From Pseudomonas fluorescens (GTDB taxonomy: Bacteria > Pseudomonadota > Gammaproteobacteria > Pseudomonadales > Pseudomonadaceae), in NCBI RefSeq assembly GCF_001307275.1, contig NZ_CP012831.1, positions 310,001 to 374,000 on the forward strand: DNA of 64,000 bases. Reading direction: 5' to 3'. The position numbers and the translations under genes are program-made. This document shows, in pieces, positions 5,729 to 53,282 of this stretch. The stretch's first letter is position 1; each line of letters starts with the position of its first letter. Below the pieces are notes generated by a model. The model worked only from the letters and a program-made list of their open reading frames with translations, was not told the origin of the DNA and ran no database searches.

Positions 5729-6823
5729 CTAGCGCCCCGCCGCCCGCGCCATGCAGCGCTGATAACGCTCATCCACCCGCTTGGCAAACCACGCTGTGGT
5801 CAGCTTGCGCGTGATTTTCGGGCTCTTGAGCACGATCCCCGGCAATACCGCCCGCGGCAACGGCTTGCCCTCGGCCCGCTCAGCCAGTTCGAACACACGC
5901 TTGTAGAGCTTGCTGTCCTCGAACGCCAGGCTGTCGCCCTGCTCCAATTGATCGCGAATGGTCGGGTTGCGCATTCCCAACGACTTGCCCAGCGTGCGTA
6001 CCGCCAGCTCCGTGCTGCCCGGCATGATTGAATCATGGGCAACCAGATCGCCATCCAGCGCCAGGGAAATGCCCGACGCTACACTCACCCCATGCTGGAA
6101 AGCCGCGTTGCGACTGGCGTACCACCCGGCATTGAAATCGGCGAAACGATACAACGGCTCGGTATAGTTCACCGGATAGCCCAGCAAATGCGCGATACCG
6201 AAATACATCCCACCACGGCGACTGAACACTTCGCGACGAATCGAGCCATCCACCGTGTAGGGATAATCCCGCGCATGGGCCTGGGCAAACGCGATACTGA
6301 CCTGCATCGGCCCACCCGTGTGCACCGGATTGAAACCGCCGAACAGGGTCTTGCCCAGCGGCACCATGCCGATGAAATCATCGAAAATCCCGCTCAGCTC
6401 TTTCTCGCTACGGGCCGCGTCGAGCCGATCGCTGTAGTTTTTGCCATTGGGCGAACGCACCTGGAGCGCGCCGCTGACCAACAGCTCCGGAATGTGCACC
6501 TTCGCCGCACGGCGGTTGATCTCCTGACGAGCGATCTTGCCCAGCCCCGGCACCGGCGGGTCGGCCTGGAACGTCGACTCCTGCTCGGTCACCGCCAGGA
6601 CCGCACAGATATTCTGCGTCGTGGACGGGATCTGCTGGGCCGCAAAGGCCACGTAAATATCAGTCGCCCAGCCTTCACGATCCACCGTCTTGGCCGGCAA
6701 CAACTGCACGATCTGCTTCTTGACCTCAGCGGGCTGGCGCTCGGGCTCCTGCAACTGACGGCTGCCGCAACCGGCCAGGGCCAGCAACGCCGCGAGGCTG
6801 ATCATCAATGGGTTGAATTGCAT
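5729..6823 (-). CDS. DUF1615 family lipoprotein (YaiW-like)
   Basis: 364 residues. The signal peptide ends in L-A-L-A-G-C with Cys19 as the lipidation site. The body matches the DUF1615 family, whose E. coli member YaiW is a surface-exposed outer-membrane lipoprotein linked to peptide uptake with SbmA. No sbmA-like gene is nearby. The ATG at 6823 gives a normal signal peptide. Function in Pseudomonas is not known. Confidence 0.88.
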   Translation of the reverse strand: MQFNPLMISLAALLALAGCGSRQLQEPERQPAEVKKQIVQLLPAKTVDREGWATDIYVAFAAQQIPSTTQNICAVLAVTEQESTFQADPPVPGLGKIARQEINRRAAKVHIPELLVSGALQVRSPNGKNYSDRLDAARSEKELSGIFDDFIGMVPLGKTLFGGFNPVHTGGPMQVSIAFAQAHARDYPYTVDGSIRREVFSRRGGMYFGIAHLLGYPVNYTEPLYRFADFNAGWYASRNAAFQHGVSVASGISLALDGDLVAHDSIMPGSTELAVRTLGKSLGMRNPTIRDQLEQGDSLAFEDSKLYKRVFELAERAEGKPLPRAVLPGIVLKSPKITRKLTTAWFAKRVDERYQRCMARAAGR

Positions 6824-6890
6824 GGTGCTCCATCGCGTTCGTTATTCCGGAGCAACCATACGATCAAAAGTGGATGCGGGCTATGCCCAA

Positions 6891-6980
6891 TGTGGGAGCG
6901 AGCCTGCTAGCGATAGCGGCGACACAGGCACCCTCGATGCAAGCTGACACACCGCTATCGCGAGCAAGCTCGCTCCCACA
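6891..6980. repeat. REP doublet (inverted pair)
   Basis: TGTGGGAGCGAGCCTGCTAG and its inverted partner AGCAAGCTCGCTCCCACA, separated by a variable middle. One base in the first half (CTAGCG for CTCGCG) departs from consensus. Confidence 0.9.
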
Positions 6981-7026
6981 GGAGAATGGCGGTGTACCCG
7001 GATCTTCCGTCCAACACAAAAACCCA

Positions 7027-7056
7027 TGTGGGAGCGAGCTTGCTCGCGATGACGGC
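7027..7056. repeat. REP single element
   Basis: TGTGGGAGCGAGCTTGCTCG followed by CGATGACGGCGG; no inverted partner before hemB. Confidence 0.85.
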
Positions 7057-7095
7057 GGTACAGTCACCACTGAGGCAAGTAGAAGGAACGCAGGA

Positions 7096-8070
7096 TCAGA
7101 TCCCACTCAGCGCCAGGTCCATGGCGAAGTAGGTGAAGATCAGGTCTGCCCCCGCCCGCTTGATTGCGCCAAGGCTCTCGCGGACCACACGGGCTTCGTC
7201 GATGGCGCCGGCCTGGGCGGCGAATTTGATCATCGCGTATTCGCCACTGACCTGGTAAGCCGACAACGGCAGATTCGAAGCCTGGCGAATATCGCGGATG
7301 ATGTCGAGGTAGGCACCGGCCGGCTTGACCATCAGCGCATCGGCACCCTCTTGCTCATCGAGCAGGGATTCACGCAAGGCTTCGCGGCGGTTCATCGGGT
7401 TCATCTGGTAGCTCTTGCGGTCACCTTTCAGTGCGCTGCCGCCGGCTTCGCGGAACGGCCCATACAGCGCCGAGGCGAATTTGGTGGAATAGGCCATGAT
7501 CGCCGTCTGGCTGAAACCGGCTTCATCCAAAGCCTTGCGAATCGCCTGGACCTGGCCGTCCATGGCCGCCGACGGCGCGATCACATCGGCACCGGCGCGG
7601 GCCGCCGCCACGGCTTGCTTGCCCAGGTTGATCAAGGTCCGGTCGTTGTCCACTTCATCGCCGTGGAGCACGCCGCAGTGACCATGGTCGGTGTATTCAC
7701 AGAAGCAGGTGTCGGACATCACGATCATTTCCGGCACCGCGTCCTTGCAGATCCCGGCCATGCGTGACACCAGACCGCGCTCGCGCCAGGTGTCGCTGCC
7801 CTCGTTGTCCAGGTGATGGGACACGCCAAAGGTCATCACCGACTTGATGCCAGCACGGGCATAGCGTTCGATCTCACCGGCCAGCTTCGACTCCGGGATG
7901 CGCACCACGCCGGGCATGCTCTTGATCGGTACAAAATCATCGATTTCTTCTTCGACGAAAATCGGCAGCACCAGATCGTTCAAGGTGAACTCGGTTTCCT
8001 GGAACAGGCTGCGCAGGCTTGCATTGCGACGCAGGCGGCGTGGACGTGCTTCGGGGAACTGGCTGGACAT
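7096..8070 (-). CDS. hemB: Delta-aminolevulinic acid dehydratase (porphobilinogen synthase), zinc type
   Basis: 324 residues. Condenses two 5-aminolevulinate molecules to porphobilinogen in the heme/B12 pathway. Schiff-base lysines are K197 (A-Y-S-T-K-F-A) and K249 (M-V-K-P-A-G). The metal site reads [11 protein letters not shown] (C122, C124, C132), the three-cysteine zinc site of the E. coli type. The well-known P. aeruginosa HemB lacks these cysteines and is magnesium-dependent, so this is probably a second, zinc-type copy. ATG at 8070 has CAGGAG just upstream; monocistronic. Confidence 0.95.
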
Positions 8071-8187
8071 GGGACTCCTGGGCAAAAAAATGGTATTCGA
8101 TCACAGGGAGCGAAGCTTATGCCCAGGCCAGCCAGGGCACAAACGCCAGCTGGAAAACAGAGTGTTACCAGCCGGGTAATAATCGCC

Positions 8188-9045
8188 TCACACGGTCAGC
8201 GAGCCATTGATGCACGTCACGACGGCACCACCAATCCAAACCTCTTCTCCCAACTGCTCGACATGAATTCGCCCGGCCCGGCCCATCGTCAGCCCCTGGC
8301 TGACCACGTAGGACGCAGGCGCCAGCCCTTTGCCCAGCATCCATTGGGCAAGCCCGGCGTTCAGGCTACCGGTGGCCGGATCCTCGGGCATGCCATCCCC
8401 GGCGATAAAGCCGCGCACTTCGAAGTGGGCCTCATCGCCATCCACGGCCCGATCCCAGGGTGCAACCACGCCCACGGCCAGATCCAGCAACTGCGGGTAA
8501 TCCGGCTCAAGCGTCAGGACTTGCTGGCGATCCTTGAGCATCACCGCCAGCCAGCCGGCACCATTATCGACCCATTGCGCCTCGACAATCGCCTGCGCTG
8601 CGAGCCCCAGCCCCTTGCGCACCCGCTCCAGCAGCTCGGCCTCCAGCGGGCCGGACTTGAGCAAGGGCGGCGCAAGGAACGCCAACCCATGATCGCTGCG
8701 GCGCACCCTGACCAGGCCGACACCGCACTCCTGCACGATCTCCTGCCCTTTGGGCACGCCTCCGGCTTCCAGCCAGGCGTGACAACTGCCCAGGGTCGGA
8801 TGCCCGGCAAACGGCAACTCGGTGGACGTGGTGAAAATACGCACCCGGTAATCGGCTTCCGGGTGCTGCGGCGCCAGCAGGAACGTGGTTTCGCTGAGGT
8901 TGGTCCAGTTGGCAAAAGCGGCCATGCGCGAGTCACTGAGCCCATCGGCCCCCAGCACCACCGCCAGCGGATTACCCTTGAGCGGTACGTCGCTGAATAC
9001 ATCCAGTTGCTTGTAATCGAATCGGCGGGTCGTCGGTTTGCTCAT
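8188..9045 (-). CDS. PhzF-family isomerase/epimerase
   Basis: 285 residues of the PhzF/YddE family (diaminopimelate-epimerase fold), with the conserved N-L-S-E-T-T-F motif (E52 in the position of the PhzF catalytic glutamate) and the L-P-F-A-G-H-P-T motif. No phenazine genes are nearby, so this is a generic family member rather than a phenazine enzyme. The start overlaps the stop of the upstream GST gene by four bases (ATGA), indicating an operon. Confidence 0.9.
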   Translation of the reverse strand: MSKPTTRRFDYKQLDVFSDVPLKGNPLAVVLGADGLSDSRMAAFANWTNLSETTFLLAPQHPEADYRVRIFTTSTELPFAGHPTLGSCHAWLEAGGVPKGQEIVQECGVGLVRVRRSDHGLAFLAPPLLKSGPLEAELLERVRKGLGLAAQAIVEAQWVDNGAGWLAVMLKDRQQVLTLEPDYPQLLDLAVGVVAPWDRAVDGDEAHFEVRGFIAGDGMPEDPATGSLNAGLAQWMLGKGLAPASYVVSQGLTMGRAGRIHVEQLGEEVWIGGAVVTCINGSLTV

Positions 9046-9740
9046 TCCGGAATCTTCAACCCACGGGCCACGGCCGGTCGCGCCAGGAAGCGCTCCAATA
9101 CCCGCGTCACATTGGGGAAGTTCTGGATACCCACCAAATCACCGGCTTCATAAAAACCGATCAAGTTGCGCACCCAGGGAAACGTGGCGATATCGGCAAT
9201 GGTGTAGCGCTCGCCCATGATCCAGTCCCGCCCTTGCAGACGGCCATCGAGCACCTTGAGCAGGCGCCTGCTTTCCTCGACATAACGATCCCGTGGCCGC
9301 TTGTCCTCGTAGTCCTTGCCAGCGAACTTGTTGAAGAACCCCAACTGCCCGAACATGGGCCCGATCCCACCCATCTGGAACATCAGCCACTGGATCGTCT
9401 CGTAGCGCGCCGCCGACTCCTGGGCCAGCAACTGTCCGCTCTTGTCCGCCAGATAAATCAGGATCGCCCCCGACTCGAACAACGCCAACGGCTGGTCCCC
9501 CGGCCCATGGGGATCGAGAATCGCCGGGATCTTGTTGTTGGGGTTCAGGGACAGGAACTCGGGCGACAGCTGGTCGTTGCTGGCGAAGTCCACTTTGTGG
9601 GGCTCGTACGGCAGGCCGATCTCTTCCAGCATGATCGAAACCTTCACGCCGTTGGGGGTTGGCAGGGAGTAGAGCTGGATCCACTCCGGGTATTGGGCGG
9701 GCCATTTCTGGGTGATGAGGTGTGGCGTCAAGTCGGGCAT
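9042..9740 (-). CDS. Glutathione S-transferase / disulfide reductase, YghU/YfcG type
   Basis: 232 residues from MPDLTPHLITQKW. The T-P-N-G-V-K-V motif near residue 28 is characteristic of the nu-class YghU/YfcG group, which binds two glutathiones and reduces disulfides or peroxides rather than having the usual Tyr/Ser active site. The start at 9740 is chosen over a longer frame to 9821 because it matches family length. It forms an operon with the PhzF-like gene. Confidence 0.88.
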   Translation of the reverse strand: MPDLTPHLITQKWPAQYPEWIQLYSLPTPNGVKVSIMLEEIGLPYEPHKVDFASNDQLSPEFLSLNPNNKIPAILDPHGPGDQPLALFESGAILIYLADKSGQLLAQESAARYETIQWLMFQMGGIGPMFGQLGFFNKFAGKDYEDKRPRDRYVEESRRLLKVLDGRLQGRDWIMGERYTIADIATFPWVRNLIGFYEAGDLVGIQNFPNVTRVLERFLARPAVARGLKIPE

Positions 9741-10046
9741 GGGGTCGGCTCGGAAATGAAGAAAACCCCGAGGATAATCCAAGATGTTGGGGACGACACC
9801 ACTGCCCGTCACAGAATTCACGTCGTCCCTTCTTAATTCAGCAACATCCTGTCGTTAACGTTCGTCCCATCTCCTGACGGAGATCGCTACAGTGCACCGG
9901 AATCGAACCAAAGCGCTCGAAGGGACTCTGAGCAATGCCTCCGAAGAACCGACGAGGCGTAACGACAGGGAAAACACCCGAGGCCAAGCGCTTCGCGGTG
10001 CCAGGGTTTGTCAGCCTGACTCAAGCGTGCTGAAGACTATTATTCG
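9741..10046. other. Intergenic region, no gene seen
   Basis: About 300 bases between a divergent pair (GST on the minus strand and the phosphatase on the plus strand). I see no REP element, no convincing terminator and no small ORF with a good ribosome site; it must carry both promoters. Confidence 0.6.
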
Positions 10047-10721
10047 ATGATGAACCCACTGAATTTCGCCAGACGCTTCAAACACCGTTCGTGGCTGATG
10101 CTGCCAACGCTGCTTGTGGTCTGTGGCCTGGTGCTGTCGCTGGAATCCAGCGTCAGCCGCGCCCAGCCAGCCGACGGCGTCCAGACCCTGGTGTTCCTGC
10201 GCCACGCCGAGAAACCCGCCGGTGGCCTGGGCCAGCTCAACTGCCAGGGCCTCAACCGCGCCATCGACCTGGCCACCCTGCTGCCGGAAAAATTCGGCAA
10301 GGCCGACTACGTGTTCGCGGCCAACCCGACCCGCAATGTCGAAGAGGGTGAGCTGGACAACTCCTACAGCTATATTCGCCCGCTGATGACCATCAGCCCC
10401 AGCGCCATCAAGCTCGGGCTGCCGGTAAACATCAATTTTTCAGCCAACGACACCAGCGACCTGGCTGACGAGTTGCTGCACGACAAGTACCACAACTCCA
10501 CCATCTATACCGCCTGGTCCCATGGCTACCTGCCGGAGCTGATCAACAAGGTCGCCGGTGAGGCGGTGGGCAAGGAGCAGACCATTACCGAAGACTGGGC
10601 CTCCGGGGACTTCGATTCGCTGTATGTGCTGACCCTGACCTGGCACAACGGCAAGGCCAGCCTCACCAGCCAGAGCTACAAGCAAGGTTTGGACAATGGC
10701 CAGCAAACCTGTCCGACCTGA
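10047..10721 (+). CDS. Histidine phosphatase superfamily protein, membrane-anchored or exported
   Basis: 224 residues. A hydrophobic stretch near residues 17-36 acts as signal or anchor. It is followed by V-F-L-R-H-A-E-K-P, the phosphohistidine R-H-x-E motif, and a later S-H-G motif (A-W-S-H-G-Y) that supplies the second histidine. Likely periplasmic. The substrate is unknown. An in-frame ATG also starts three bases later. No obvious operon partner. Confidence 0.82.
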   Translation: MMNPLNFARRFKHRSWLMLPTLLVVCGLVLSLESSVSRAQPADGVQTLVFLRHAEKPAGGLGQLNCQGLNRAIDLATLLPEKFGKADYVFAANPTRNVEEGELDNSYSYIRPLMTISPSAIKLGLPVNINFSANDTSDLADELLHDKYHNSTIYTAWSHGYLPELINKVAGEAVGKEQTITEDWASGDFDSLYVLTLTWHNGKASLTSQSYKQGLDNGQQTCPT

Positions 10722-10728
10722 TCATCCG

Positions 10729-10818
10729 TGTGGGAGCGAGCTTGCTCGCGATAGCGGTGGGTCAGCTTGCCTCAAGGGTGCCTGTGTCGCCGCCATCGCG
10801 AGCAAGCTCGCTCCCACA
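10729..10818. repeat. REP doublet
   Basis: TGTGGGAGCGAGCTTGCTCG and inverted AGCAAGCTCGCTCCCACA, between convergent genes. Confidence 0.92.
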
Positions 10819-20407: not shown

Positions 20408-20995
20408 ATGTCATTGCTGAGTAAACAAGCCGCCGTCCTGTTGCTGGGAGCCATCGCCAGCCTGGTCGTGGCATCCGCCCAGGCGGCCCCGGCCAAACCT
20501 GCCAGCGATGCACCGGCGCAGAAGGTGTCGATGCTGGGCGGCAAGTTCACCTTCACCTTGCCCAAGGGTTTTACGGCGACGCCATTGCCCGCCGGTGAAG
20601 CCGCCCAGGGCACCGCCGGGGCGACGGGGACGATGTACAGCAATGCCACCAGCAAGACCGTGGTGATCGCAGCGGAAAACATCATCATCGACGGTGCGAA
20701 TGTGAAGGATGACGATGGCACGTTCCTCGACACCACCATGGCCGACTTCGCCGCCCAGCGCCTCAAGTCGCTGCCGGATGCCAAGATCCTCAGCGAAAAA
20801 AGCCTGAAGCAAAAAGGCACCGGCCTGGGCCTGCGCCAGCTCGACACCCGCGCGACCCAGGGCGGCGGACCGACCCTCGACACCACCTTGCTGGGTGCCT
20901 CCGGCACGCGCATGGCGGTGGTGCAGATCATCTCCCGGGCCAGCGACAAGACCGGCCATGAAGCGTTGGTGAAACAGATCGCCAGCGGTCAATAA
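20408..20995 (+). CDS. Conserved exported protein, unknown function
   Basis: 195 residues with a signal peptide (about 1-26, ending A-S-A-Q-A-A). The mature part is beta-rich with no cysteines and no motif I recognise, typical of periplasmic Pseudomonas proteins. The ATG at 20408 gives a good signal peptide. Monocistronic between a membrane protein and a REP cluster. Confidence 0.8.
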   Translation: MSLLSKQAAVLLLGAIASLVVASAQAAPAKPASDAPAQKVSMLGGKFTFTLPKGFTATPLPAGEAAQGTAGATGTMYSNATSKTVVIAAENIIIDGANVKDDDGTFLDTTMADFAAQRLKSLPDAKILSEKSLKQKGTGLGLRQLDTRATQGGGPTLDTTLLGASGTRMAVVQIISRASDKTGHEALVKQIASGQ

Positions 20996-21008
20996 GCCCC
21001 CCGGAACA

Positions 21009-21099
21009 TGTGGGAACCGAGCTTGCTCGCGATGGCGTCGGCACACCCAACCTTGAGGCAAGCTGACCCACCGCCATCGCGAGCAAGCTCGCTCCCACA
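21009..21099. repeat. REP doublet, first of three tandem copies
   Basis: TGTGGGAACCGAGCTTGCTC (one extra base) with inverted AGCAAGCTCGCTCCCACA. Followed by a 45-base linker containing GCCGAAGAATCGAGGACAAT that recurs after the next copy. Confidence 0.9.
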
Positions 21100-21289
21100 G
21101 GGATCTGTCTTCGCCGAAGAATCGAGGACAATCACCATCAAAAATGTGGGAGCGAGCTTGCTCGCGATGACGCCGGCACACCCAACCTTGAGGCAAGCTG
21201 ACCCACCGCCATCGCGAGCAAGCTTGAACTGGCCTAATAATTCCGGACACCTCTTAAGGGCGATATGATTTCGCCAACTTGGAGGTTCC

Positions 21290-35876: not shown

Positions 35877-36911
35877 ATGATTGTCCGTCCGGTGGCCCTC
35901 ACCGATCTGCCTGCCTTGCTGGACCTGGCCCGTTGCGCGGGCCCGGGGTTTACCAGCCTGCCGGCCAACGAAGAGCGTCTGGCCCACCGCGTTCGCTGGG
36001 CCCAGCGGACCTTCGCCGGCCAAGTCGAACGTGCCGACGCCGACTACCTGTTCGTGCTCGAAGACGATGACCGGCAGGTGGTGGGCATCAGCGCCCTGAC
36101 CGGGGCGGTGGGGCTGCGTGAGCCCTGGTACAACTATCGGGTCGGGGTCACGGTCAGTTCGGCGCCGGAGTTGGGAATCCAGCGGCAGATCCCGACGCTG
36201 TTTCTCAACAACGAGATGTCCGGGCAATCGGAAATCTGCTCGTTATTCCTGCACCCCGAGCAACGCCACGGGCACAACGGACGCCTGCTGTCCCTGGCGC
36301 GTCTGCTGTTCGTGGCCGAGTTTTCCCAGCTGTTCGGCGAAAAACTCATTGCCGAGCTGCGGGGCCATGCCGACGAACAAGGCTGTTCGCCGTTCTGGGA
36401 CAGCCTGGGACGGCATTTTTTCCAGAAGGATTTCAGCTACGCCGACCAGTTGTCCGGGATGGGCAACAAGTCGTTCATCGCCGAGCTGATGCCACGCCAG
36501 CCGCTGTACACCTGCCTGCTCACCGAACAGGCCCAGGCGGTGATCGGCAAGGCTCACCCGAACACCGAACCGGCCCTGAAAATCCTCAGCGCCGAAGGTT
36601 TCAGCCATAGGGGCTACATCGACATTTTCGACGGCGGCCCGGTGATCGAAGCGCCGGTGTCGAAAATCCGCAGCGTACGCGACAGCCAGACACTGACCCT
36701 GGCCATTGGTACTCCGGACGAACAAGCACCGGTCTGGCTGATTCACAACCGGCGCCTGGAAAACTGCCGCGTCACCAGCGCCCGCGCACGCCTGCATGGC
36801 AACAGCCTGCTCGTCGATCGCCTCACCGCCAAACGCCTGCAAGTGCAACCGGGTGATACGGTGCGCGCCGTGGCATTGTCCAGACAGGGGCAACAGGCGG
36901 TGGCGGCGTAG
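35877..36911 (+). CDS. Arginine N-succinyltransferase-like subunit, AruG paralogue
   Basis: 344 residues, AstA family, matching AruG (beta): M-I-V-R-P-V, L-P-A-N-E-E-R-L, L-R-E-P-W-Y-N-Y-R-V-G, F-D-G-G-P-V-I-E-A. AGGAGC lies just upstream of the start, and it follows the AruF-like gene in the same direction. Last gene of the cluster. None of the later AST enzymes (AruD, AruB, AruC, AruE) is here, so the N-acyl product must be handled by others. Confidence 0.9.
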   Translation: MIVRPVALTDLPALLDLARCAGPGFTSLPANEERLAHRVRWAQRTFAGQVERADADYLFVLEDDDRQVVGISALTGAVGLREPWYNYRVGVTVSSAPELGIQRQIPTLFLNNEMSGQSEICSLFLHPEQRHGHNGRLLSLARLLFVAEFSQLFGEKLIAELRGHADEQGCSPFWDSLGRHFFQKDFSYADQLSGMGNKSFIAELMPRQPLYTCLLTEQAQAVIGKAHPNTEPALKILSAEGFSHRGYIDIFDGGPVIEAPVSKIRSVRDSQTLTLAIGTPDEQAPVWLIHNRRLENCRVTSARARLHGNSLLVDRLTAKRLQVQPGDTVRAVALSRQGQQAVAA

Positions 36912-37013
36912 CCCTTTCTCGCGTCTCGTACACCGATATCCGATCACCGCCGCCCCGGCGGCCGGTCTCATCGCCCTACCAAAAGCGCAGCGTTACCGAG
37001 TCTTTAACAACTC

Positions 37014-37037
37014 AAGTATTGTTCATCGGCAATACTT
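37014..37037. promoter_or_regulatory. Perfect inverted repeat before the unknown operon
   Basis: AAGTATTG, 8 bases, CAATACTT. No T-run follows, so an operator or leader structure for the 37116 operon is more likely than a terminator. Confidence 0.5.
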
Positions 37038-37115
37038 CCCGACAATTCCATAATTGCCTCCACCCCCTCCCAAAACCATACTTGTGCCCATCGCCCTACT
37101 GTAACGAACCCGCTC

Positions 37116-37889
37116 ATGATCAAGACTCTGATTTCCACGCACCGGCTGCCTGAAGAGATCGCAGAACAAATAAAAACATTGGACATGACCGCGCAAATCA
37201 ATCAATTAATTGCCGAGCTGAACAACCAGCCAACATTTACCGATGCCCGTTCTCGACGTGCAGCCATCATGAACATTACCAACTTGCACACGGCCACCAT
37301 CACGTTGCATTGCACGAACATTGGCAATATCAGCATCAAGCCACTGACATCCGTCGATGTCTCTTCGCAACTGTATTCAATACCCGGCCGAAGTATTCTG
37401 TTCGCCGTTGATCGCCCCTTCGACGTACAGCGATATACCCTCGAGGGGCATCGGCTTGAAAAGGCCGACACCGTACGCATAGATAAAAACAACCCACTGG
37501 TGATCGATGGCAGCCGGACACTCTTTGACTACTGCCGCCCAGCGCAAACGAACACCGGGCTGGTAGGCAGGATCAATCTGCCGGACAGGAGTGCAGACAT
37601 CGGAGTATTCGATCGTGCCTCGTTACGCAAGGTCGCCTGGCTACCCCATGACGACAGCGCCGCCCGCTACCTGGTGAGCCTGGAGCTGCTCGAAACGGTT
37701 CAAGACCCCGAACGCAGCCGCGTCGCCGGGGAGCTGATCTACCACTATCACCCGGCCGTGGCGTGGAAAGCCTTCCAGGTGCTCTATCGGGCCAATCCCC
37801 AGGACGCCTTGAGCTACATTGCGCTGCTGAAAAAACACCAGGATTCGCGCCTGGACAATTTGCTCCAACCGTTCGAGCAGGCGGCATGA
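37116..37889 (+). CDS. Unknown protein, first gene of a three-gene operon
   Basis: 257 residues, soluble, no signal peptide. The middle (about 60-170) is predicted beta-rich; the C-terminal 85 residues look helical and contain Y-H-Y-H-P-A-V-A-W-K-A-F. I recognise no family. Base composition is visibly less GC-rich than the flanking catabolic genes, which suggests transfer. The stop overlaps the next start by four bases (ATGA), so it works with that protein. Confidence 0.75.
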   Translation: MIKTLISTHRLPEEIAEQIKTLDMTAQINQLIAELNNQPTFTDARSRRAAIMNITNLHTATITLHCTNIGNISIKPLTSVDVSSQLYSIPGRSILFAVDRPFDVQRYTLEGHRLEKADTVRIDKNNPLVIDGSRTLFDYCRPAQTNTGLVGRINLPDRSADIGVFDRASLRKVAWLPHDDSAARYLVSLELLETVQDPERSRVAGELIYHYHPAVAWKAFQVLYRANPQDALSYIALLKKHQDSRLDNLLQPFEQAA

Positions 37890-38527
37890 AGCTGGAAGCC
37901 TTTGTCGAGCGATTGAAAACCCATGACCTGCAGCGAGATAGATCCCGGATTATCGAAGACCTGCGACAGTTGGCCAACAATCGCACTTTGTTGAGCGATC
38001 ATCTGTACGCCACGATCCAACGAGACGGCTTTGATACACGCAGCAGCCTCTACAACGCCTATGGGTTTGTTCTGCACCGCAATGACTCGTTTACCCTTCG
38101 CTTGAATTTCTGGGCACCGGCAGGAACCCCTGATGAAAAAGAAACGTTCATCTATAACCTGAACCACAGCCACGACTTCGAGATTTATGCCGTTGGCTAC
38201 AGCGGTGACGGCTATACCACTATCACCCGCGAGATACTCGACGACCTACCGCTGCAAAAGAATAAGAGACCGCGCCTGGGTAAAGCGCGACGACTAAAAC
38301 TTGCACCCGGCGAAGTGCTGTACATGCCCGCACTCAAAGAAATCCATAGACAGATCCCGCCAATGTCAATGTCGGCCTCATTGAGCCTGCTCGTCCATCC
38401 GCAACATTGGCTCAAACTCGATGAAGCCTGGTGTTTCGATAAGGACTACCGACCGCTTCACCCGGGTGTAGCGACGCAAGAAATCGCACTATTCACAGAC
38501 ACGTTGTCATTGCTCAACACCGGATAG
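37886..38527 (+). CDS. Cupin-like protein of unknown function
   Basis: 213 residues. A cupin-type metal-site pattern is visible: H94-x-H96-x-x-E99 followed by G104 (motif 1), then G142 in P-G-E-V-L-Y-M-P and H154 (motif 2). This suggests a metal-binding beta-barrel, either an oxygenase/isomerase or a binding protein. The start overlaps the upstream stop; a longer frame lies inside that gene. The product works with the first protein and perhaps the peptide encoded next. Confidence 0.75.
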   Translation: MKLEAFVERLKTHDLQRDRSRIIEDLRQLANNRTLLSDHLYATIQRDGFDTRSSLYNAYGFVLHRNDSFTLRLNFWAPAGTPDEKETFIYNLNHSHDFEIYAVGYSGDGYTTITREILDDLPLQKNKRPRLGKARRLKLAPGEVLYMPALKEIHRQIPPMSMSASLSLLVHPQHWLKLDEAWCFDKDYRPLHPGVATQEIALFTDTLSLLNTG

Positions 38528-38565
38528 TCATTTCGTTGTCCGGTATTTAAAAGAAGGAGAAAAAC

Positions 38566-38748
38566 ATGAATAACCTGATGCAAGACTGGGAGGAAACGCC
38601 CTTGTTGCGAGCCAGCACTCAGGTGATCGACACCGCTACGCAGTTGATCAACGAAATCCAATGCACAATCCCCGGGTTCCCCACTCGCTTCAACGTTGCA
38701 AACATCCACGAGATCAAGCAACTGTGGAGCGTGCCAACCTCAGACTGA
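38566..38748 (+). CDS. Small protein/peptide, 60 residues, third gene of the unknown operon
   Basis: Preceded by AGAAGGAGAAAAAC, the strongest ribosome site of the operon, and followed after 25 bases by an intrinsic terminator. The first 38 residues are helix-like, and the rest contains one Cys and the stretch G-F-P-T-R-F-N-V-A-N-I. No signal peptide. It could be a small partner protein or a peptide precursor modified by the cupin-like enzyme; I have no family match. Confidence 0.65.
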   Translation: MNNLMQDWEETPLLRASTQVIDTATQLINEIQCTIPGFPTRFNVANIHEIKQLWSVPTSD

Positions 38749-38773
38749 GCGACACACCAAGGACGCTTTCGCT

Positions 38774-38806
38774 GGCCGCAGACTTACCGGGTCTGCGGCC
38801 TCTTCC
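38774..38806 (+). terminator. Intrinsic terminator of the unknown operon
   Basis: GGCCGCAGAC, 7-base loop, GTCTGCGGCC then TCTTCCC. Ends the 37116-38748 transcript. Confidence 0.85.
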
Positions 38807-38930
38807 CATGCAGCGAACGCATCGCCCATACACATTCGTCATCATCTTTACGCTTGCCACGTGATAGCCTTTGGATCTTTCGGCGTTGACACTTTTGTTC
38901 AAGCCTTTCCATTCCATTGGTGGAACTCAT

Positions 38931-39800
38931 ATGTCCAGGCTTTCCCATCAAGATTTGCGTCGTAACTTTCGTCAACTGCTGGCTTCCAAGACCTGCTACC
39001 ACACCGCCTCGGTGTTTGACCCGATGTCGGCGCGCATCGCCGCCGACCTGGGTTTTGAAGTAGGTATCCTGGGAGGCTCGGTCGCGTCGTTGCAAGTATT
39101 GGGCGCGCCGGACTTCGCCCTGATCACCCTCAGCGAGTTTGCCGAACAGGCCACCCGTATCGGTCGCGTGGCCCAGTTGCCGGTCATTGCCGACGCCGAT
39201 CATGGCTACGGCAATGCCCTGAACGTGATGCGCACCATCATTGAACTGGAACGGGCCGGCGTCGCGGCGCTGACCATCGAAGACACCCTGCTGCCGGCCC
39301 AGTTCGGGCGTAAATCCACCGACCTGATCGGTGTCGCCGAGGGCGTCGGCAAGATTCGGGCAGCGCTGGAAGCACGCGTCGATCCGGAAATGGCGATCAT
39401 CGCCCGGACCAACGCCGGGATCTTGCCAGTCCAGGAAATCATCAGCCGGACCCAGCAATATGAGCGTGCCGGGGCCGACGGGATTTGCATGGTGGGCGTG
39501 CAAGACTTCGATCATCTGGAAAAAATCAGTGAAAACCTGACGGTGCCGTTGATGCTTGTCACCTACGGCAATCCACTGCTGCGCGACGACAAGCGCCTGG
39601 CCGACTTGGGCGTCCGCGTGACCATCGACGGCCACGGCGCCTACTTCGCCGCGATCAAGGCCACCTACGACAGCCTTCGCGAACAACGGCAGATCTTCAC
39701 CCAGGCCTCGGACCTCAGCGCCACCGAACTGACCCACACCTACACCCAGCCCGAGGACTACATCCGCTGGGCCGAGGAGTACATGAGCGTCAAGGAGTAA
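38931..39800 (+). CDS. Oxaloacetate decarboxylase (PEP mutase/isocitrate lyase superfamily)
   Basis: 289 residues, closely following the P. aeruginosa PA4872 oxaloacetate decarboxylase ([14 protein letters not shown] near the N-terminus; [17 protein letters not shown]). It converts oxaloacetate to pyruvate and CO2 with a divalent metal, linking the TCA cycle to pyruvate. ATG at 38931; a longer frame to 38871 has no family support. Confidence 0.92.
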
Positions 39801-52162: not shown

Positions 52163-52810
52163 TCAGAACCTGATGGTGGCCTGCACCACTACACCGATGA
52201 TGCGGCATTGCTCGGTGTACAGGTTTTTCGGGTAAGTCGGATTGAGCGGAACCAGGTAACGCTGCCCGCTCTCTTCGATCAGTTTGCGAAAGGTCGCGTC
52301 ACTGCTACCGGGCAGGCAGGCGACCACCAGTTTGCCGGGCACCGCCTCGATGGCCGGATCCACCAGGATCGACATGCCCTCGGGAATGCTCAACCCACTG
52401 GGTGCGGTCATCGCATCGCCCACCACCACCAGCCAGAATGCATCGCCCAGGGCGTGGTAGTCCGTCAGTTCGTAGCGCGCCTGGCTGTAGGCGCCGGGAT
52501 CGCCTTCGCGAACCTCGCCAACCTCGTGCCACTCACTGATCGGGTAACGGAAGTACGGATTGTACTTCTGCGCCAGGGCCATGCCTTCTTCGGTGGAGGT
52601 GTCCGGCTCGCGGATCACCATGGCCACTTCCAGAAACTCCAGCCCCAGCTCCCGCAGGACCCGGTTCATGTCGTCGACACTGGGCTGCCGGCGCTTGGTC
52701 AGCCAATGGCCGACGCCGCCCTGGGACATTCCCAACCGCTCTGCGAGCACCACTTGCGTGATGCGCAGCTCCTTCATCTTGGCCTTGACCAACTCTATCC
52801 ATTTATCCAT
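52163..52810 (-). CDS. CI/LexA-type repressor with Ser-to-Ala change in the protease site (PrtR-like)
   Basis: 215 residues: XRE-type HTH at the N-terminus (W-I-E-L-V-K-A-K-M-K-E-L-R-I-T-Q) and a C-terminal S24 peptidase fold. It strongly resembles pyocin/phage repressors of the PrtR/CI type. The G-(N/D)-S-M-T-A-P nucleophile motif is G-D-A-M-T-A-P (A133, codon GCG), while the lysine (K176, T-F-R-K-L-I) remains; no Ala-Gly or Cys-Gly cleavage pair is visible in the linker. So it is probably not self-cleaving on SOS signals. No phage genes flank it. Confidence 0.9.
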   Translation of the reverse strand: MDKWIELVKAKMKELRITQVVLAERLGMSQGGVGHWLTKRRQPSVDDMNRVLRELGLEFLEVAMVIREPDTSTEEGMALAQKYNPYFRYPISEWHEVGEVREGDPGAYSQARYELTDYHALGDAFWLVVVGDAMTAPSGLSIPEGMSILVDPAIEAVPGKLVVACLPGSSDATFRKLIEESGQRYLVPLNPTYPKNLYTEQCRIIGVVVQATIRF

Positions 52811-52865
52811 GTGCGGCACGATACGTGGGTGGCTCCGACCCGCAAAACACAAATTGTAGTATTTA

Positions 52866-52881
52866 AATTGTCGTCACAATT
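52866..52881. promoter_or_regulatory. Putative repressor operator
   Basis: AATTGT-CGTC-ACAATT, perfect arms, with a related ACAAATTGTA at 52849-52858, in the divergent promoter of the repressor and the DUF6124-type gene. Confidence 0.55.
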
Positions 52882-52940
52882 ACGGTAAGTACTATTCTGG
52901 ATTCAGGAGTTCAGCCCCTCACACGGAGATTTTCATCGCC

Positions 52941-53282
52941 ATGGACACACCCAATACAGACCAGCCCAGCAGCCCTTTCGACGGCACGTTCCCTTCATTG
53001 CAGGATTGCCCGGCAGCCAAACGCGCCCTCGATTACTACTTGAAACCAGGTGTTTCGCCAGCCCAGGCAGAACATCGTTTTTTCGAGGTCAGCCACAGCG
53101 TCAGCGCGGAGGAAGCCCTGGTCCATGCGTGCGACCTGCTGCGCTGTGCAGCGGCAACCGCCCATGAGTCGGCCAACCAGTTAGACGGTTCGAGCCGTGA
53201 CCTGGCATTTTCGGTGGTGCACATGATCGATCTGGTCAAGGTGATGCTTGACCGATCCCTGGATGGCTACCCTACTCGCTAG
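52941..53282 (+). CDS. DUF6124/DUF3077-type small protein
   Basis: 113 residues, helical, acidic, with the typical middle segment A-L-D-Y-Y-L-K-P and a C-terminal helix (V-H-M-I-D-L-V-K-V-M-L-D-R). Family common and often multi-copy in Pseudomonas; function unknown. It is divergent from the repressor with shared operator candidates, so its expression may be controlled by it. Confidence 0.8.
   Translation: MDTPNTDQPSSPFDGTFPSLQDCPAAKRALDYYLKPGVSPAQAEHRFFEVSHSVSAEEALVHACDLLRCAAATAHESANQLDGSSRDLAFSVVHMIDLVKVMLDRSLDGYPTR

Follow-up and report, generated by a model that had tools for sequence, protein, structure and literature searches.

Three adjacent genes, here called A, B and C, in a Pseudomonas fluorescens genome of 7.12 Mb (one contig) are probably a RiPP-type cassette in which the 60-residue product of C is the encoded substrate and proteins A and B act on it together. 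The genes lie in a 64,000-nucleotide stretch of DNA that was analysed as a whole (the window). As the trio combines a peptide, a partner protein with a helical tail and no histidine triad, and a three-histidine cupin, a peptide-modifying complex is its simplest reading.

Layout of the locus and its DNA signals

The first-pass annotation had described three genes of 257, 213 and 60 residues with an ATGA overlap between the first two, and the open reading frames bear this out. Gene A (37116..37889, +; 257 aa) is joined to gene B (37886..38527, +; 213 aa) by the ATGA at 37886-37889, followed by gene C (38566..38748, +; 60 aa). Strong ribosome sites had been claimed for the trio; that of C was found (AAGGAG, 38554..38559, +), but no clear site precedes A or B. 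The left neighbour is a gene of the arginine N-succinyltransferase family (AstA; 35877..36911, +) and the right neighbour a gene of the PEP-mutase/isocitrate-lyase superfamily (38961..39800, +), both outside the cassette, which agrees with the earlier placement between metabolic genes.

The perfect inverted repeat reported before A (37014..37037) is present as an 8-8-8 arrangement, but its reading as an operator is weak. The repeat was absent from the 250 bases upstream of A in all 30 relatives, 18 of which had other perfect dyads and 12 of which had none, and a shared operator was therefore rejected. The loci L079-L082 share a perfect hairpin (arms of 12 bases) some 120 bases before A, which is perhaps the terminator of the preceding gene. 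The intrinsic terminator proposed after C is likewise a weak reading: a strong hairpin is located at 38774..38800 (+), with a folding energy of -23.4 kcal/mol and z -4.4 for 38765-38812, but it has no T-run and the terminator scan returned no site there.

Predicted folds of proteins A and B

The AlphaFold model of B, built from 32 sequences, had a mean pLDDT of 86.3. Its top Foldseek match was a Pseudomonas aeruginosa thiol dioxygenase (E 8.8e-7), with a moderate TM-score of about 0.55 in the best rows (normalised by query length). VIA-align 2, run on the Foldseek chains, gave Z 14.1 for B against mercaptosuccinate dioxygenase 8vni (rmsd 3.3, 159 residues), with other thiol dioxygenases no more than 1 Z unit from 8vni for both B and A. 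B shares its predicted fold over most of its length, including the N-terminal helices, with cysteine, 3-mercaptopropionate and mercaptosuccinate dioxygenases (PDB 4tlf, 6xb9, 8vni; rat and human CDO), but has about 15–18% identity to thiol dioxygenases and no match to a family profile.

Eight residues (H94, H96, H154, W76, G107, G109, Y110 and L139) were invariant in all 82 B rows. The three histidines (codons 38165-38167, 38171-38173 and 38345-38347, +) would form an iron site like that of cysteine and other thiol dioxygenases, and B is predicted to be a thiol-dioxygenase-type cupin with a putative three-histidine metal site. The cupin identity given to B in the first-pass annotation was right and is sharpened by this model. 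Of the metal pattern proposed with it (H94, H96, E99, H154), the histidines stand in every row, whereas E99, present in the window protein, varies among the 82 rows and was rejected as a ligand. CDO and MDO carry a Ser-His-Tyr set, and that of CDO was not seen in B at the positions equated by eye: residue 165 is Ser in 80 of the 82 rows, residue 167 is N/S/A and residue 169 is M/L/I/V.

No dioxygenase model was matched by window B in Pfam and NCBIfam up to E 1, by the 32 B members in NCBIfam up to E 0.1, or by 17 members of the wide family in Pfam and NCBIfam up to E 0.01. JmjC_2 and Cupin_8 were reached by B at E 0.16-0.17 only. A sequence search of the PDB returned two matches for B, both at E 0.11, and none for A, and neither protein had a confident match in Pfam, NCBIfam, PADLOC or PHROGs. 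Weak matches to Phage_Gp84, Cupin_8, JmjC_2, PilL, archaeosortase and Rlip lay far below their cutoffs and were rejected as identities. Classing B as a cysteine dioxygenase is not warranted: fold and triad agree, but the family profile is unmatched and the Ser-His-Tyr positions were equated by eye.

A thiol dioxygenase of P. aeruginosa was also the top Foldseek match of A (E 2.2e-5; model from 31 sequences, mean pLDDT 90.1), with 3-hydroxyanthranilate dioxygenases mixed in near the top and a moderate TM-score of about 0.4 in the best rows (query-length normalised). Against 8vni, VIA-align 2 gave Z 11.7 (rmsd 3.1, 145 residues). Across 57 A rows W217 was the sole invariant residue and no histidine reached 75%. 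A is predicted to share the fold of B, to lack the His triad and to carry a HEAT-like helical tail, which contains an invariant H210-x-H212 in the close group. Three of the 31 close members of the A family match HEAT_2, at E 0.0089 or weaker; window A does not. Among the distant A and B proteins several match it, and the A proteins of L085 and L086 and the second B of L051 score above its curated cutoff. A comparison of the A and B profiles gave no match, so the kinship of the two proteins rests on the predicted fold.

Peptide C and the distant A-B pairs

A and C were present in all 31 named loci found with B (30 in Pseudomonas, one in Morganella), C always beside A-B, and a second locus set (L028-L049), largely the same loci, had the trio in 22 of 22. 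The first-pass annotation had singled out the trio as a candidate new system and had named two findings that would speak against it, loss of the small ORF from beside the other two genes and a match to a known characterised system; the small ORF kept its place in 31 of 31 loci and no characterised system was matched. The position of C varies between upstream of A, downstream of B and both, and six of the 31 loci have two C genes that are diverged copies. In L074 (5232-7093) and L076 (6862-7134) C genes lie upstream of A only, and a relative of the PEP-mutase-like flank gene precedes A.

The Cys of C (Cys33 in the window, codon 38662-38664, +) was found in 44 of 44 rows, or 43 of 43 without L040, a duplicate of L067, and also in the C copies of L036 and L037, which lie outside that count; a second Cys occurs in four of the 44. 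Further invariant residues are R, N, I, I and K (R41, N43, I50 and K51 in 43 of 43 rows), and the spacing from the Cys to R41 is variable. Both ends of C are conserved and the middle is variable, unlike a classical leader with a free core. Median dN/dS was 0.16 for A, 0.11 for B and 0.17 for C (21 pairs from seven sequences), values that are rough because many dS exceed 1, and C appears to be under purifying selection. C matched no family with confidence. Beside the Pseudomonas trio, where most neighbours were clustered only, neither a protease nor an exporter was identified.

The conserved ends and the invariant R, N, I, I and K, as for a folded partner, would also suit a C that serves an A-B enzyme as a small obligate subunit or as its regulator, the enzyme having another molecule as its target and the Cys of C being structural or a sensor. 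We regard this as unlikely: the variable placement of C and its diverged duplicates argue against it, as do the distant peptides described below, in which a shared leader is followed by a variable C-terminal part. It is rather improbable that B acts as a dioxygenase on a free small thiol, with C and A as accessories. The best fold matches of B do act on free thiols, but B, unlike thiol dioxygenases, has the peptide gene and A beside it in 31 of 31 named loci, and it lacks a Pfam or NCBIfam dioxygenase model.

Remote relatives of the pair required a wide profile that included distant B proteins. The close-relative A profile found its own genome only among 398 genomes of the phylum, and the close-relative B profile found its own and G614 only among 369 genomes of the class. 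The wide B profile matched 15 of the 398 phylum genomes, its own included, 12 of them in one family outside the class, and in that family 43 of 119 genomes had a match. An A-like gene was recognised by profile upstream of B in 12 of 15 loci. Fifty distant loci were compared (15 from the phylum search, 33 from further loci, and L085 and L086), and in all 50 an ORF of more than 150 codons ended near the start of B, as judged by position alone.

A small ORF with a shared leader was present in 46 of the 50 loci, mostly directly upstream of A. At E<=0.01 the leader profile, built from six seed peptides, matched in 43 loci, among them 37 of the 44 non-seeds; at E<=0.5 it matched in 45, and L152 was recognised by eye. 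In the control, none of 1459 small ORFs elsewhere in 15 regions matched at E<=0.01, on a somewhat stricter E-value base (Z 3000 vs 779). The leader reads approximately LPKIDLSSLPDLDTxTGxFGS and the remainder is variable and Val/Ile/Tyr-rich; a Shine-Dalgarno-like 4-mer precedes 37 of 45 distant peptides. Profile comparison of the distant leader and peptides with C gave no match. No leader match was obtained in L113, L116 and L086, which have other small ORFs upstream of A, and no convincing peptide gene was found for the pair of L085 (G614). Only seven of 45 distant peptides contain a Cys, and thiol oxidation therefore cannot be the general reaction; either the chemistry differs in these loci or Cys is not the target.

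Some distant loci have additional genes. In L086, on Alteromonas stellipolaris plasmid CP013927.1 (2761-10929), exporter genes of the HlyD/MacB-like and ABC-2 kinds flank A-B, two small ORFs precede A, and the locus looks like a fuller peptide cluster. L051 (G065; 7887-10760, -) has one A-like gene and two tandem B genes, after which follows a 48-aa ORF without Cys that is preceded by a Shine-Dalgarno site. A Cupin_8/JmjC-type protein is encoded directly upstream of the A-B pair in L085 (7073-8020). Several distant peptide-A-B operons (e.g., L104-L108, oriented about 6000-7400) have two small proteins on the opposite strand that resemble PaaI-type thioesterases.

If the trio is a RiPP-type cassette, A, with its HEAT-like tail and no triad, and B would form a complex in which A may bind or position the conserved parts of C and B would modify C with Fe(II) and O2. 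In the Pseudomonas clade the modification would perhaps fall on the invariant Cys33, a target that we name tentatively. The RiPP-type cassette is the best reading, supported by the synteny, the duplication of C, the invariant Cys, the two folds, the triad of B and the distant leader peptides, and weakened by the Cys-poor distant peptides, a C unlike leader plus core, the failure of C to match the distant peptides and of A to match B as profiles, the lack of a recognised protease or exporter beside the Pseudomonas trio, the unexplained H210-x-H212 and L085 without a peptide. The peptide-plus-enzyme arrangement suggested in the first-pass annotation fits the conserved trio, the duplicated peptide genes and the peptide gene accompanying most distant pairs. 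On a broader view that we consider quite possible, yet somewhat short of probable, the close and distant loci would represent an undescribed RiPP class, spread over several Pseudomonadota groups and built on a heteromeric thiol-dioxygenase-fold enzyme of a three-histidine cupin and a triad-free partner with a HEAT-like tail. Its Pseudomonas branch would oxidise an internal peptidyl Cys at a defined site, and its larger branch would modify mostly Cys-free, Val/Ile/Tyr-rich cores by another reaction of this fold.

Distribution, related systems and meaning

The lower GC content noted earlier is real: 0.539 for 36915-38818 vs 0.620 for the window, and the cassette region is the window's lowest-GC 1.9-kb stretch. 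Two more low-GC stretches (GC <= 0.56) are found in 1.9-kb windows starting at 20701-21101 and 52201-53201. The insertion was delimited to about 36915..38818 by aligning each flank separately to the A-B-free site L182 of the close relative G035, which has 112 unrelated nt in place of the insertion and aligns outside it. Loci of the right-flank protein were sought in 69 genomes of the genus and the best 30 by score were compared, a set in which near relatives are over-represented because only the best-scoring loci were taken. Three of these had A-B, 19 had a succinyltransferase near the PEP-mutase-like gene without A-B, and eight were otherwise arranged. The cassette is accessory, and near relatives lack it at the same site.

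Of the 398 genomes sampled from the genus, 24 have B, its own genome among them. One copy, in G055, is decayed: A is only partly present and an internal stop interrupts B (L050, G055:C39:20000-37000, oriented 7863-8452). The nearest named relative by protein B was Pseudomonas brassicacearum CCUG 51508 (78% identity). The tree places the B of Morganella morganii with its P. farris counterpart (76% identity, support 100/98); a long-branch warning applies to the whole tree. In Vibrio sp. ED002 the trio is found on a plasmid, adjoining Tn3 and restriction-modification genes; the C of this plasmid was missed by phmmer, but is an annotated 59-aa gene that aligns with C. The mobile accessory function proposed earlier fits the near relatives without the cassette, the Vibrio plasmid copy and the grouping of the Morganella B with P. 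farris. A search of viral contigs with two peptide patterns found no B relatives and a search of phage records with one distant B found none, leaving a viral origin unsupported.

The patchy occurrence, the low GC and the plasmid-borne Vibrio copy beside restriction-modification and Tn3 genes would also be expected of a toxin-antitoxin or defence module with C as its toxic or signalling part, but seven proteins of the family had no model in PADLOC-DB 2.0.0 up to E 0.1, and we hold this to be distinctly improbable. That the trio supplies enzymes to the adjacent arginine or PEP-mutase-like metabolism is hardly credible: arginine-succinyltransferase genes are close to the trio in 25 of the 32 loci compared, but the surroundings differ in L027, L070, L075 and L079-L082, and 19 of 30 loci keep the neighbours without the trio. 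In L070 (P. farris; 30-2803) the trio is located away from the usual site, near genes that look to us like type III secretion export components, and the genes near the trio in L079-L082 look, by their sequence features, like sucABCD.

Plant cysteine oxidases and ADO act on the N-terminal Cys of proteins. They have the same fold as B (Z about 11-13), and B too would act on a polypeptide Cys, but Cys33 of C is internal. Among RiPP systems, the biphenomycin-like pbs cluster includes the cupin-like hydroxylase PbsQ, a relative of JmjC proteins whose partners are MNIO and radical-SAM enzymes (PMC12257519). The pbs cluster and the trio both have a precursor gene beside modifying enzymes and a cupin-type enzyme acting on a peptide, putatively so in the trio, but PbsQ is JmjC-related whereas B reaches JmjC_2 and Cupin_8 only at the E-values given above (PMC12257519). 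The Os1348 antibiotic-related cluster of Pseudomonas sp. Os17 comprises four genes with an 85-aa precursor and adjoins efflux genes; compared by description only, it resembles the trio as a Pseudomonas small protein with putative modification genes (PMC7726476).

No description of an A-B-C system was found among the matches listed in open-licence literature, subscription papers and preprints being outside the scope, and in the same open-licence literature none was found that joined HEAT repeat, RiPP and cupin. The trio shares the logic of RiPP systems, and its enzyme type could not be tied to any characterised RiPP class.

Thiol-dioxygenase-fold enzymes act on small thiols and on N-terminal cysteines of proteins. 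A bacterial pair with a dedicated peptide, outside the searched Pfam and NCBIfam models, would extend RiPP chemistry by an enzyme fold, and the A-B-peptide arrangement would give a new handle for genome mining. With the putative substrate encoded beside the enzyme, the system can be tested directly. If most of the distant peptides are truly without Cys, one fold would serve more than one kind of peptide chemistry.
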